Assembly (NCBI GenBank): GCA_003415625.1
Contig: PYIU01000008.1
Coordinates: 2,480,001 to 2,544,000 of the forward strand
Source: Aquanectria penicillioides
Lineage: Eukaryota; Ascomycota; Sordariomycetes; Hypocreales; Nectriaceae
Length of the DNA stretch: 64,000 nucleotides
Direction of reading: 5' to 3'
Position numbers and translations under genes: made by a program. This document shows positions 31,620 to 38,181 of the stretch, piece after piece. The notes under the pieces are model-generated. The model searched no databases. It was not told the origin of the DNA and was given only the letters and a program-made list of their open reading frames with translations. The first letter of the stretch is position 1, and each line of letters begins with the position of its first letter.

Positions 31620-33177
31620 CTACTCGACATATCCATTGTGCTTAAACGTGCCCGACATCAGGTCCAGCAGCTGCTGGCGCGTGGTTGGGCCCCGGTCAAT
31701 GACGATCCTGGGCATGGTGCGCTGCCATGCGTACCACAGCACGACGGTGACCAGCGTCACAGGCACGGCGCACGCCCAGTAGACCCAAAACTTGTCCGAC
31801 ACGTTCCAGTCGCCGCTGTCGGAGTTGTAGTTGAAGAAGGACGTGCTGAAGATGGCGGAGATGAAGGTGGCGGGCAGGAAGATGAGCGTCAGGAAGGCAA
31901 TCGTCTTCATGCTCGCGCTGTCGATCTGCGCGGCGCGGCCGATCTGCACCGACATGCCCGAGTCGTACTGGGCGACTGAGTGGAAGCACAGCTGCACCTC
32001 GTTGAGCAGGCGCTCCTTGTTGGCGGCGGCGCGGCACCGGAGGCTCTCGAGGATGTGCTCGAACCAGAGGATCTGCTCGTGGACGTTGCGCGCCGCATAC
32101 TTGCCGGGCCCGTTTGCGAAGTGCGGGTCGTCGACGAAGGCCTTGTGGTGGCGCAGCATGAAGGCGGCCGTCTTGACCGACACGTCGAGCGTCTCGGAAA
32201 CGTGGATCGCGTGACGGGCGAGGTCGTGCAGGCGTTCGTAGTTGGGCGTGGGCTTGTTGTTGGCGTTGAGCTCGCGCTTCTTCTCGACGTTGCGCACGTG
32301 GGTGCGGACGGTCCAGACGGCCGTGTCCTGGAGGTCGACGACTATCTGCAGCAGGCGGGAATGGATCCAGAAGGGGTCGGTGATGTTGTCCTTGTCCGAG
32401 TTGTCCAGCAGCGGCTTGGGGATGGCGTTTGCGATGGGCAGCGGGGCGTCGAAGACGAGGATGATGGTCTGGTTGTTTGCCGAGAGCCACCGCGTGAAGA
32501 CGTTGAGCTTGTACCACTCGTGATCTACGTTGTCGCCGTAGTCCATGTCCAACTGCTTGACGAGGAAACGCGACCAGGCATCTGAGCAGGATCATGTTAG
32601 CAGACGAGTAACACAAAACACAGCCAGTTGCGCATGGTTGAGGTGTGTGTGGTGGTGGTGGTGGTGGTGATGGTGGTGGTGGTGGCTCACTGATTGATGT
32701 CAACTCTTCGTTCTCATTTCTCGTCGTCTCGCAGCCAAAGTAGCCATTGGACCTGCGAGAGTATGCTGACCACCACAGCTCGGGGATATGAAATGATTTT
32801 GTGAAGCACCGCCTGCACGAGGGACACTCGCGAACGGCGTCTGCAATGGTGCAGCTGGAGAGCAAAAGCAAAGTAAGTGTGAGGTTCAAAATTGAGAAGT
32901 GAGAGACGTACATTACGACGACGTGGGAATCGTCATTGAAGACATCGCCCGATTTCTCCGACTGCGTATCTTCCTCATTGTCGGCCTCGGAGTTGAAGAA
33001 GTCGGCAGGACGGACACTTTGTTTCTCAAGCCAAGTCCCGTCGGCTGATGATTCCTTTGTGAGCGGGGACTGGGAGAATTGTTTTTTTTTGGTTTGGGGA
33101 TGGAGCTACTGACCTCGATTCCACGTTAACACGGATAAGTCTGGACAGCCATCGTGAGAATCCTCTTTTTTCAACAT
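31620..33177 (-). CDS. CorA-like Mg2+ transporter family protein
   Basis: Four exons (33177-33114, 33044-32912, 32854-32691, 32581-31620) give 440 residues in a continuous frame. The N-terminal half is hydrophilic and includes a CPSCRRC segment. A long helical region follows (VHEQILWFEHILESLRCRAAANKERL), then two C-terminal membrane helices: TIAFLTLIFLPATFISAIFST and FWVYWACAVPVTLVTVVLWYAW. This is the CorA architecture of the fungal CorA-like family. The canonical GMN pore motif between the helices is not present; here the loop reads SFFNYNSDSG, as in other fungal relatives, so ion selectivity is uncertain. The second-exon acceptor at 33044 was chosen because only it keeps the reading frame. 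Intron 3 contains a GGT microsatellite. Confidence 0.85.
32641..32690. repeat. (GGT)n/(ACC)n microsatellite inside intron
   Basis: An imperfect GT/GGT run with one GAT interruption lies within the third intron of the CorA-like gene, next to its donor site. Read on the minus strand it would give a Pro/His run, but that is intronic. Confidence 0.85.
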
Positions 33178-33659: not shown

Positions 33660-36573
33660 TTAATTGCGTCGGTTGATTGTTTGGCGTTGCGCCAGTATTC
33701 CCTTGTCCTCCTGAATCCACTCCTCCAACAAATTTACCCTCCTTTTTGTCTCTGGGTGGTCTACCCCGAGGACCCTCTGGCTCTCTGCCACGCAGGTTTT
33801 CAATTCCGCAATCGCCTTCTCCCTTTGAGACAGCTTGTATCGGACAGATGCAACGTTGTCCATAATGCAGAGGCCGGCGAATGGGTGGTGCCGAAACCTC
33901 GCTTGCGTCAACTTCCAAATCTTGTCAATGTCTCGCTCGTCGACTCGATATCCCGAACAGCAATTCACGAGGCAGAGTGTAGACCAACTACTGAGCGTGC
34001 TAAGATCCTCTTCGTTCAGTTGTTTCCGTTTCAGGGCCAGTATATCCAATAAAAGCACCCTCGCCTTTTCAAAGTTGCCTTGGCAATATTCTACCTGGGC
34101 AATAGACGATGCGGTTTCGACGGTTTCCAGATGGTGGTGGCCCCAAGTCTTCTCCTGCACCTGAAATGACTCTAATAAAAGGAGTTTTTCTTGTTCATAG
34201 TCGCCCTGGAGATGGTATATTTCGGCGAGGTGCCTCTGGGAAGAGATGGTATCGCTATGGTTGTTACCAAGAATCTCCTTCTGGGTTTGAAGCACCTTGG
34301 CAAATAGCTGCTCTCCCTCATCATAATAGCCCTGCAACATGTAAGTTTCACCTAGCCGAGCTATGGAAAAGAGAGTCTCTGGGTGGCTTCCACCGTTAGC
34401 TCGCCGTCGGCATGCTATAACTTTCTCCTGGAGCTCGGTTGCCTCTCTGAAACGGCACTGCTCAGTGTACAGGGTGGAAAGGTTGAGCATCTCCGACATC
34501 ATGGGCATGTAATCTTCACCATGCGCTTGTACTTGCAGCCGTATTGAATAAAGGTACAGTTTTTCTGCTTCTTCTTTCTTTTCCAAGCTGTCATAAGTTA
34601 CTGCGAGGGTAGCAAGCGCCATCCATGTCTCATAATGAGCTTCGCTCAGGGTGTTTTGCGCCAATTTTTGAGCCGTCATCCCCAGACGCAAAGCCTTGTC
34701 TAGGTCGCCCCTACTTCTGCAAACGCCCGCAAGAGTTGAAGTGTACTCAACAATGATAGGGTGATGATCGCCTAGAGTTTGTCGCGCCAGCTTTAGCGCT
34801 TTCTCCAGTATCTGTTCTGCCTCATCCCAACGACATTGCTGGTCATATGCATACCCGAGGGCTAGTAGACTGCTGATAGTGCGAAAGTGTCGGGGCCCTA
34901 GTGCGTTTGTTCTCAGATGTACTATTTTCTCACAGACAACCGTCCACTCTCTCCAGCTGCCACAGTCTGCAAGATAATCGGATACCCCGTCAAGGAGGAT
35001 TGTCGCATTGTTTTCTTCCCCGAGAGGCTCGGCCCATTCACATACTCGCATAGCGTGCGGTAAGTAATCCTCACACTCCTGGCGGTGTTCCGGAGAATGT
35101 GGCGCTCCTTTTCTTACCCCAGGGAACAGGGTCATGATGATCTTCAGGGCAGCCTGACAATAATATGACTCGCTCTGATCCCCATAATCTGGCGTAGAGT
35201 TTGGTTTCGCGTTTTGATTCCCTCTTCTTCTCCATCTCAGGAAACCCTTTAGTATGCCATCAAGTCTTTGGTTGCGACTGTGACGCCTTCCCTTGTTCGA
35301 GGCTTCTTTTGCTTGAATGCCATATCTAGTAGCCTCTTGCACAAGCTTATGGAGATTGATAACCTTTTTGCCTCGCTCTGTTTCGTGTACAGTGACGAAC
35401 GAAAACTCCTGGAGTCGAATTAGTGCCGCATTGGCTTTCCTAGTGACATTGATGTTTTCGCTCCCATGCTCAATCCCTAGCTTTGCTGCTTCTCTGACAA
35501 CGTCAAAGGGTATCATTTGGCTATCGAGATAAGCAATAACATGCAAAATGATGAATGCAATGTTGTTCTCTTCTCTTATCTGCCGGATTGAGATGCGCCA
35601 TGTTTCCAAAATGCTGTTGGGAATGTTTGATCTTCGAAATCTGTCAAACTCTGTCTCTTGGAGGATTCTCCACCTTTCTTTGCCCTCATTCAGACTTGAA
35701 ACATACTCGGTGACAGAGGCTGAGGTACGTCTTATAAATGCCCCGCTTTGATGAATGACCAATGGCAGCAGCTGGAGTTCTTGAAGCAATTCATTCACTT
35801 CTTCGACCTCATCTTCGCCAATCTTCCTGTTCATTGCAAGCTGCAGGAGTTCTTTTGCCTCTTCCGGCGTCGTCTTGGACACCTGGATTGCCCGTTGGGG
35901 ATTGACAAGTGTACCAGAAATACGTTGATCTCGACTTGTCCATAGGACCGACCCAGTTGGGCCACCAGGGATAAATTCCAAGAGACCGCCGGTTCCAGTT
36001 CGTGTATCTATGCCCACACCAAACAGCTCCAAGTTGTCAGCATTGTCGACGACGATAAGCCATCTTTGTTCCGATTCAATCTTCTCCTTCACAGCCGTGA
36101 GCAAATTCTTACCGTCCAGGTCTTTGCTCAAGCCGAATTTGCTCGCAATTGCTTTGTAGTCCTGTCTAAAGGTCGATTCGTTGTCGGCATGGACCCAAAA
36201 GACGGAACAGATGGAGTCTTTGCATCTAGCGTACGCGAATTCTAAGGCAATCTGAGTCTTCCTGTGACTATCTGAGCACGTTGCAAGGGTGAAGAAAAAG
36301 GCCCTGTGGCACCTACCCAGAACCGCCAAGGCCCCAAAGAGCTGCGCTGTGATAGTCTTTTTGGGCCGGCAGCAGAGTTTCCAGCTTGGTGAAGATTCCT
36401 GTGCGATGAACGACATTTTCGTTGCGTGGAAAGGGGATGTAGTAGATCGGTCGACGGTTAGGTGGCCGGGAACCGCCTTCGTTAAACTGTTGATTCAGGA
36501 TGCCTCCCGTCACATTGATTGCGCCCATGACAGTTCTGCCATTGACGGGCGCGTTGAAAGAGGTCCCGTCCAT
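33660..36573 (-). CDS. NLR: N-terminal amyloid-like motif, NB-ARC, TPR repeats
   Basis: Two exons (36573-36317 and 36261-33660; 55-nt intron inside the P-loop) give 952 residues. Residues 1-34 form a Gly/Asn/Thr-rich motif (F6-N7, P9, G12, G17, T22-G23-G24, F30-N31-E32-G33). The linker RPIYYIPFPRN leads into NB-ARC: P-loop GLGGSGKT (81-88), Walker B WLIVVDN (153-159), the WTSRD segment (193-197) and LPLVIHQSGAF (251-261). A winged-helix-like region follows, then about ten TPR units from residue 500 to 930 with a kinesin-light-chain pattern. Fungal NLRs sense non-self or internal ligands and switch on a cell-death effector. The first ATG (36573) places the motif at the extreme N-terminus. The N-terminal motif matches the tail of the PNP_UDP protein encoded head-to-head. 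Intact. Confidence 0.9.
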
Positions 36574-36900
36574 TGCGGTGGAGTGGTTACCGCCCTGGTG
36601 ATGAGACACGACAAGATGCTCCCAGAACGTTGGATACCATCAACCTACTTCAACAGTGGGATCGAAGACAGAAATGCAGCTGAGCAGCTGGAAAATATCA
36701 TTTCGGAAAAGTAAGGCTGAGATTCCCCTCGGCGCTTATCCACGTGAACTGTGGACGCCTCAGCCCCAGCCTGACCACAGCCTGCTTCCCAATTGAGCCC
36801 TGGCATGCGGCTTTAATAAAAACCCAAGGCCACATCTGCGTCGAAATCCAATTTCTCGTAGTCGCGAACTCCCTTGACCTGTATCTCATTCATTGTGATC
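36574..36900. promoter_or_regulatory. Shared bidirectional promoter of NLR and PNP_UDP genes
   Basis: Only 327 bp separate the two divergent ATGs (36573 minus, 36901 plus), so core promoters must overlap and joint expression is likely. No conserved operator was identified. Confidence 0.6.
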
Positions 36901-38181
36901 ATGGCCTCTGCTCCTACAACTCGAGCCGACTTTGACATCGCCATAGTCTGTGCGCTGCCTCGTGAATACGATGCTGTTGTACTGACGTTTGACGAATTCT
37001 GGGACAATGATGGAGACAAGTATCGCAAAGCTCCTGGTGACGAGAACGAATACACAACCGGAAGGATTGGTGATTTCAACGTCGTCCTGGCCCTTCTACC
37101 CAACGTTGGAAAAGCCATCTCCGCTGGTGCAGCTGCGAATCTTCGGATGAGCTTCACTGGTGTGAAGCTCGTGCTCCTGACCGGAATCTGCGGGGGCATT
37201 CCTGCTTCGGTCAAAGATGAGGATATGCTGCGAGGAGACGTGATTATTAGCAAGTCTTTGGTCCAATATGACGATGGAAAATACAATGACGACGGGTTTG
37301 CCACGACCGAGCTGTTGGAGAAAAGTCTCGGCCGTCCACCAAAGAGCGTTCGCAACATAGTCGTTATGATTGAGACCGCGCGTAGGCGTGCACAACTCGA
37401 AACACAAGCGGCGAAATATTTGGAAGATATTCAGAATACCCCAGGAAGAAAAGGTCGCAAGAGCAACAAGTATAATTATCCTGGCGCAGCTACAGACAAG
37501 CTATTTCGCTCAGACTACCGGCATATCCATCGATCCCGGGAATGCGACAACTGCAGTCAGGTGTTCCCGGTTTTTTGTAATGAGGCCTCTTCACTGCCAT
37601 GCGATGAACTTGGTTGCGACAGAAAATACCTGGTGCAGAGGCAACGTCTCGACGACAACCTGGAACTCGAGCGCCATGGGAAGGCCCACGAAGCCCAGGC
37701 CCCTTTCATCTTTGTTGGGAGAGTTGGTTCAGCAGACACAGTAATGAAGTCTGCATTTGAGCGTGATAGAATTGTCAAGAAGTATGAGCTCCTGGCAATC
37801 GAGATGGAAGGGGCCGGTATTTGGGACGAACTTCCTTGCATTGTGGTCAAAGGTGTCTGCGACTACGCGGACGGCCACAAGGACAAGATATGGCAGGACT
37901 TTGCCGCGGCGACCGCCGCGTCTGTAACAAAAGCGTTGATTATGAGGTATACGAAGACGGAAAAACCAACGGGTGGAAGTTATTTTAGCGGATCAAATGA
38001 AAACGTGTCTGGCAAAGCCCAGGAAGACCACCAAATTGCGACAGGATCTCACGGCGGAGTAGTCTTCAATGGACCGATAAGTGGCAAGAATTTCATAGGA
38101 GGGATCACTACCACTGGAGGGTCCACGACCTTCACGTTTAACGAAGGGCAGGATGATGGGAGTTGGAAGAATGGCTGGTAG
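36901..38181 (+). CDS. PNP_UDP-domain protein with C-terminal amyloid-like motif (candidate NLR effector)
   Basis: Intronless, 426 residues. The nucleoside-phosphorylase fold starts DFDIAIVCALPREYDAV and continues with LTGICGGIPA, the fungal Cys-bearing insert (DELGCDRKYLVQRQRL), the ribose-binding EMEGAG and the base-binding Asp region GVCDYADGHKD. This is the PNP_UDP_1 domain common at the N-terminus of fungal NLRs, but here it is a free-standing protein. After a Gly/Ser/Asn-rich linker, residues 384-417 repeat the NLR N-terminal motif (14 of 34 identical, no gaps). By analogy with HET-S and SesB-type effectors, an activated NLR could template this tail into an amyloid and cluster the enzyme domain. 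The start at 36901 begins MASAPTTRADF. Enzyme family is firm; the effector role is inference. Confidence 0.9.
   Translation: MASAPTTRADFDIAIVCALPREYDAVVLTFDEFWDNDGDKYRKAPGDENEYTTGRIGDFNVVLALLPNVGKAISAGAAANLRMSFTGVKLVLLTGICGGIPASVKDEDMLRGDVIISKSLVQYDDGKYNDDGFATTELLEKSLGRPPKSVRNIVVMIETARRRAQLETQAAKYLEDIQNTPGRKGRKSNKYNYPGAATDKLFRSDYRHIHRSRECDNCSQVFPVFCNEASSLPCDELGCDRKYLVQRQRLDDNLELERHGKAHEAQAPFIFVGRVGSADTVMKSAFERDRIVKKYELLAIEMEGAGIWDELPCIVVKGVCDYADGHKDKIWQDFAAATAASVTKALIMRYTKTEKPTGGSYFSGSNENVSGKAQEDHQIATGSHGGVVFNGPISGKNFIGGITTTGGSTTFTFNEGQDDGSWKNGW

Follow-up and report, generated by a model that had tools for sequence, protein, structure and literature searches.

A motif shared by the termini of divergent NLR and PNP_UDP genes of Aquanectria penicillioides: a candidate amyloid-signalling connector

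Fungal innate immunity has a few known prion-like connectors that link receptors with effectors. In NWD2/HET-S and the HRAM pairs, the two genes are divergent neighbours and the effector carries a homologous motif at its C-terminus (PMC3321046, PMC4518210). Effectors of other kinds have also been described. UDP-phosphorylase/STAND pairs with sigma-type extensions are known (PMC3321046), and the PUASM motif of PNP_UDP enzymes shows prion behaviour in Podospora (PMC9815663). Here we analyze a NOD-like receptor (NLR) gene and a PNP_UDP gene that lie head to head in a 64,000-nucleotide stretch of the ascomycete Aquanectria penicillioides (assembly GCA_003415625.1, contig PYIU01000008.1, positions 2,480,001 to 2,544,000; hereafter the window).

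The window pair resembles NWD2/HET-S and the HRAM pairs in its divergent arrangement and in the motif at the effector C-terminus. The receptor motif spans residues 3-33, compared with residues 3-23 in NWD2, and the effector is a PNP_UDP enzyme with a single motif copy, whereas theirs is a HeLo pore-former (PMC3321046, PMC4518210). We consider it probable, at roughly 70%, that the NB-ARC-TPR receptor-like protein and the PNP_UDP enzyme form a two-gene immune switch: once activated, the receptor would serve as the template for a predicted amyloid-like fold of the motif on the enzyme, which would thereby be turned on. This reading is based on a shared motif, its terminal positions, the divergence of the genes, its recurrence, the preference of the receptor for its neighbour and the existence of fused versions that have no motif. 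Because the motif recurs, both on other receptors and on proteins related to the enzyme, it is likely to be a prion-like connector.

The original prediction had compared the layout with NWD2/HET-S, and the comparison holds. It had also implied that an amyloid pair of PNP_UDP and NLR would be a novelty, which is not the case, since such pairs have been published (PMC3321046, PMC9815663). The data support a pair of this already described kind; possibly new are the motif, the layout of six receptors to one enzyme, and one HET-domain carrier of the motif.

The motif and its copies

The NLR protein (952 residues) has an NB-ARC-TPR architecture, with Pfam matches to NB-ARC (E 3.6e-8) and TPR_12 (E 3.6e-45). 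Its first 36 residues, ahead of the NB-ARC start region, are a motif region in which Pfam finds no further domain. The enzyme (426 residues; PNP_UDP_1, E 3.4e-14) is encoded without need of an intron. The two proteins have similar tags of about 31 residues, placed, as was predicted, at the very start of the receptor and at the end of its partner (residues 386-416, ten residues from the C-terminus). The predicted ungapped alignment of NLR residues 1-34 with PNP residues 384-417 was recovered at the same coordinates, with exactly 14 identities in 34 positions. The local BLOSUM62 score of the pair is 78; 2,000 double shuffles gave a mean of 24.4 (standard deviation 4.4) and a maximum of 45, so none was as high.

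The motif core is roughly V-F-[NHY]-G-P-[IV]-x-G-[RKH]-x-V-[IV]-[APGS]-G-x3-[TS]-G-G-T-x-N-x-x-F. It is rich in G (20%) and N+Q (11%) and has a low charge (D+E+K+R 6%). The F-N-E-G ending pointed out in the original prediction is present in both window proteins, but it is a peculiarity of this pair: none of 31 tails from other species has it, and none has the E near the motif end in the tested form F-[NS]-E.

The genome (53.76 Mb, 13 contigs) was searched for further copies. Only the best candidates were scored, and thus all counts for this genome are lower bounds. At least five additional copies were found, every one at the start of an NLR-type gene. Those at C3:449791 and C1:3484226 belong to NB-ARC-TPR genes, and that at C2:752320 belongs to a NACHT gene according to Pfam. 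At C2:1045860 the NACHT match is interrupted by an in-frame stop, and at C1:644259 a NACHT-like P-loop, recognized by eye, is spread over split frames; hence two of the five genes look damaged. At L031 (4860 onward) and L049 (1324 onward), where an in-frame stop or split frames affect NACHT genes that carry the motif, the receptors may be decaying. The receptor at C1:3484226 (L043, 5733-8729) has a long near-identical TPR array with 14 TPR_10 stretches, like fungal NLRs with high internal repeat conservation.

Compared with each other as single sequences, the own-genome copies give weak E-values (0.002 to 0.17), and therefore profiles were used to re-check them. One profile combined four NLR copies of the genome and included neither window protein; it gives the window PNP tail 32.6 bits, whereas the highest score among shuffles (2,000 made, 1,918 reported) is 11.8 bits. 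The reciprocal profile was built exclusively from the 31 enzyme tails of other species and run against 6,757 open reading frames in 30 stretches. Six of the seven own-genome copies took ranks 1-6: the window PNP (40.2 bits), C3 (30.7), C1:3484226 (26.6), C1:644259 (24.0), C2:1045860 (19.6) and the window NLR (16.1).

Among the copies found in the genome, the ratio of receptors to enzymes is 6:1. A second motif-tailed enzyme was found neither at the 20 PNP places inspected with short flanks (from 48 match rows, several per gene) nor in the whole-genome motif searches.

A full-length search with the enzyme returned 1,105 relatives, the best 120 of which were examined; a search with the last 87 residues alone gave 21 candidates, none at E<=10. 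With a profile of five NLR-side copies, the motif was found (domain E<0.01) in 31 of the 120 best PNP_UDP relatives, at a distance of 0-16 residues from the C-terminus. The named sources among these best relatives include Colletotrichum, Fusarium, Ilyonectria, Neonectria, Verticillium, Pestalotiopsis, Trichoderma and Parachaetomium, and the four species checked for taxonomy represent four Sordariomycete orders. Different G/N-rich stretches, resembling further signalling motifs, are seen at the C-termini of P0077, P0103, P0095, P0093, P0115, P0109 and P0059; the tail of P0059 looks like a diverged copy of the window motif.

Probing with natural motifs retrieved two receptor-length proteins, one of them at E 1.3. 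An NLR of Lentithecium fluviatile (P0122, Dothideomycetes) begins with the motif (37.3 bits with the 31-tail profile). Protein P0121 has a Pfam HET domain (residues 25-113) followed by the motif (residues 272-301; 59.8 bits with the same profile). It is a possible second effector class, although it is a single protein, its contig is only 3.3 kb long, and the gene model may be faulty. The 2012 survey found no HET/STAND pair by its criteria (PMC3321046), so that the motif on a HET-domain protein would form a new combination.

A quick midpoint-rooted tree was made of 121 PNP domains, in which the branch of the window row is long. It needs 9 changes of the motif label when six weak rows are dropped (115 rows, 32 with the motif) and 11 when all 121 are kept (38 with the motif). 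Repeated gain or loss of the motif among PNP relatives is therefore likely, though not established. A group table derived from the labelled rows of the tree was no lower than shuffles (119/500) and was not used.

Pairing, fused forms and the enzyme

When the window NLR is compared with 32 enzyme tails, its own neighbour ranks first (score 78; the next is 69, the median 53), an observation on one pair only. For the copies at C2:1045860, C3 and C2:752320, the best tail is that of P0038 and the next that of the window PNP; P0017 joins these two enzymes in a cluster of the quick tree (SH-aLRT 92, long branches). The Lentithecium NLR places the window PNP 29th and prefers P0036, P0073, P0070 and P0020.

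Fused forms of the two proteins exist, and the motif is absent from them. The same genome has, at C1:3529 (L035), a PNP domain with an NB-ARC-TPR about 130 bp behind it on the same strand. The alignment reaches PNP residue 354 and starts at NLR residue 42, so both motifs are missing; a GT-AG intron, judged by eye, can join the two frames, and the PNP part has a frame break. In protein P0010 the PNP domain leads into the beginning of an NB-ARC region, which is of the window/C3 type (scores 118 and 148, against <=65 for the other four). The same is seen in P0107, a Fusarium solani PNP that stands among motif-tailed relatives, but there the NB-ARC beginning is of the Lentithecium type (164; the next is 92). 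The motif and covalent fusion therefore look like alternative links between PNP and NLR. The same alternation with fusion was described in 2012 for other effector domains (PMC3321046).

The closest solved chains of the enzyme by sequence are MTA/SAH nucleosidases (4jos, E 3.4e-11 with a 37-row profile). The window PNP aligns with 4jos at EMEGAG (300-306 region) and CDYAD (320-324), which we take to be the catalytic boxes of 4jos. In 37 aligned PNP rows E301, M302 and E303 are invariant, and D321 is kept in at least 90%. PADLOC reports matches to PDC-M60C (2e-20) and to a PN-superfamily effector (1e-10). At the sequence level, the Pfam, PADLOC and PDB matches agree with the suggestion of the original prediction that an enzyme stands here in place of a pore. 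According to the reviews PMC10197012 and PMC12881547, PNP_UDP immune effectors cleave ATP; the substrate of the window PNP would most likely be ATP or a related nucleotide. Bacterial PNP-type immune effectors and ATP nucleosidases likewise use the PNP fold as an immune effector, as the PADLOC matches suggest here; in contrast to them, the fungal enzyme is a separate protein that would be reached through the motif.

Positions 37522-37617 encode PNP residues 208-239, where H208, H210, C215, C226, C234 and C239 are invariant in 37 aligned PNP proteins; this insert looks like a putative metal-binding site.

The features of the locus are collected in Table 1. The genes that flank the pair look ordinary: Rft-1, a weak CorA-like match, a member of the arginase family and a beta-eliminating lyase. 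A short GGT-rich microsatellite stretch lies downstream of the NLR gene at 32640-32690.

Table 1. Features of the NLR and PNP_UDP locus (positions within the window)
Feature	Position	Strand	Basis
NLR exon 1, residues 1-86 and the first base of the next codon; motif and NB-ARC start	36317..36573	-	Start at ATG 36573, earliest in-frame ATG of its open frame
Receptor-side motif, NLR residues 3-33	36475..36567	-	14/34 identities with PNP 384-417; 16.1 bits with the other-species tail profile
Predicted 55-nt intron inside the P-loop	36262..36316	-	GT-AG; removal restores GLGGSGKT
NLR exon 2, remainder of NB-ARC and TPR repeats	33660..36261	-	Pfam
Intergenic 327 bp between the start codons; possibly a shared promoter region of both genes	36574..36900		Coordinates
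PNP_UDP effector gene, 426 residues, ATG to stop	36901..38181	+	Open frame, Pfam
PNP_UDP enzyme domain, about residues 11-354	36931..37962	+	Pfam, 4jos alignment, conserved columns
Effector-side motif, PNP residues 386-416	38056..38148	+	Alignment, profiles

Known families and alternative explanations

The original prediction had left it undecided whether the motif belongs to a named family. By the tests that were run it is not HRAM, sigma, PP or PUASM; PF01048_015 and NLR12 were compared by description only.

The HRAM template consists of G19 and hydrophobic residues at 5, 8, 10, 16 and 18 (PMC4518210). All five hydrophobic positions are found in 0 of 38 motif copies and four in 6 of 38, which is about the shuffle level. 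The HET-S Pfam model PF17108 has no match in the whole genome at E<=1.

Sigma-type UDP-phosphorylase/STAND pairs resemble the window pair in the effector class, in the layout and in the tighter similarity within a gene pair than across species (PMC3321046). Neither sigma box, GxGxQF or GGTQNIN, occurs in any of the 38 copies, and only a loose GGTxN is seen in 12 of them. NACHT_sigma has one match over the cut-off in the genome (C6:6422144-6422233), which is not at any locus of the window motif. A Pfam scan was made of 30 tails, namely the window tail, 28 of the 31 other-species tails (P0075, P0021 and P0073 were left out as near-duplicates) and the sigma-tailed control P0112; row 1 had one mistyped flanking letter. 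It gave one NACHT_sigma match, in a row that the scan does not name; the control P0112 bears the NACHT_sigma label in the list of relatives. The scan also gave three single weak matches to unrelated families (E 0.05-0.09).

The PP core GLQL is absent from all 38 motif copies, and the two Ses_B matches in the genome are both below the cut-off and away from the loci of the window motif. PUASM pairs are similar in that a PNP_UDP effector tail is paired with an NLR N-terminus, but their receptors are NACHT or NACHT-WD40, whereas the window partner is NB-ARC-TPR (PMC9815663). The PUASM pattern FxGxGxQxxGxGxF was found in 0 of 38 motif copies and in 0 of the 120 best PNP_UDP relatives. None of the Pfam amyloid models matched the window pair or the six own-genome motif peptides, which gave one weak match to DUF7464 (E 0.19).

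Pairwise tests against five reference peptides revealed no consistent match. The copy at C1:3484226 scored against the sigma peptide with z 4.3 (3/500 shuffles as high) and that at C2:752320 against the archaeal AEB69175 peptide with z 3.9 (2/500); a six-copy profile gives AEB69175 4.4 bits (E 0.002 for one sequence). The window motif may thus be distantly related to sigma or to motifs of the bacterial type.

The strongest alternative, to which we give almost even odds, is that the motif has been catalogued already, as PF01048_015 (PUASM 2) or as NLR12, which would make the pair one more member of a published family. PF01048_015 apparently is the second of "PUASM 1-2" in PMC12261475. Both labels are tied to PNP_UDP tails, and NLR12 is single-copy, mostly Sordariomycete and often not adjacent to its partner; in genomes where its receptors and effectors co-occur, there are about 5.7 receptors to each effector (PMC9815663, PMC12261475), much like the excess observed here; both likenesses were judged by description, not by logo. 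However, PF01048_015 is described in only four pairs (PMC9815663), NLR12 is described as HRAM3-like while no copy of the window motif has the full HRAM template, and six strings of the motif have 0 occurrences in 5.39 million open-licence paper texts.

The motif could also be a homotypic non-amyloid beta connector, i.e., a small beta-hairpin or a strand swap through which the enzyme would dock to the oligomerized receptor and no self-propagating fibres would form. A conserved proline about midway along the motif's first half and the failure of all known amyloid profiles to match it would fit such a connector. Nevertheless, we regard it as unlikely: fungal amyloid motifs have been described with just this layout, position, low charge and G/N richness (PMC3321046), and PUASM, which sits on enzymes of this class, behaves as a prion (PMC9815663). 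Finally, chance or low-complexity convergence, which the compositional bias and the weak single-sequence E-values might suggest, is rejected as highly improbable, since composition-preserving shuffles never reached the pair score or the four-copy profile score, the motif recurs at the C-terminus of relatives, and the reciprocal profile recovered the own-genome copies at the top.

Several observations weigh against the prion-like switch itself. Proline is unusual inside an amyloid core, and that of the motif is kept in 28 of 32 effector tails and in six of seven NLR copies. The copy at C2:752320 ranks seventh with the 31-tail profile, below the inclusion line (8.7 bits, E 0.49). The receptor at C1:3484226 fits the enzyme poorly, placing it 22nd of 32, and just one of the six motif-bearing receptors is the genomic neighbour of the enzyme. 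The receptor-side copy from another named species is P0122 alone, at E 1.3 in the search itself.

Proposed mechanism and meaning

If the two genes do form a prion-like switch, the TPR repeats would sense a ligand and NB-ARC would oligomerize, stacking the N-terminal motifs. The stacked motifs would recruit and convert the matching PNP tail. Clustering would then activate the nucleosidase, most likely to cleave ATP or a related nucleotide, and the cell would probably be killed or arrested in growth. Several other motif-bearing NLRs of the genome might feed the same single enzyme.

A broader version of this scheme is tentative, and we hold it to be doubtful. The motif may represent an undescribed amyloid-signalling family that serves as a shared bus, in which six receptors, some with an NB-ARC and some with a NACHT NTPase and only one adjoining the enzyme, would converge on one ATP-cleaving PNP effector. 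The same plug would have passed from one PNP clade to another and also to a HET-domain effector, letting receptors and effectors recombine with the connector unchanged. We lowered our estimate for it because the receptor at C1:3484226 fits poorly and two receptor genes look damaged.

If the switch is real, it would add a motif to the few connectors of this kind, one that is found on PNP_UDP tails of four checked Sordariomycete orders and on one Dothideomycete NLR and that is tied to a probable nucleotide-cleaving enzyme and not to a pore. The six-to-one layout makes convergent immune signalling via one common amyloid directly testable, and the natural motif-free fusions would be built-in controls.

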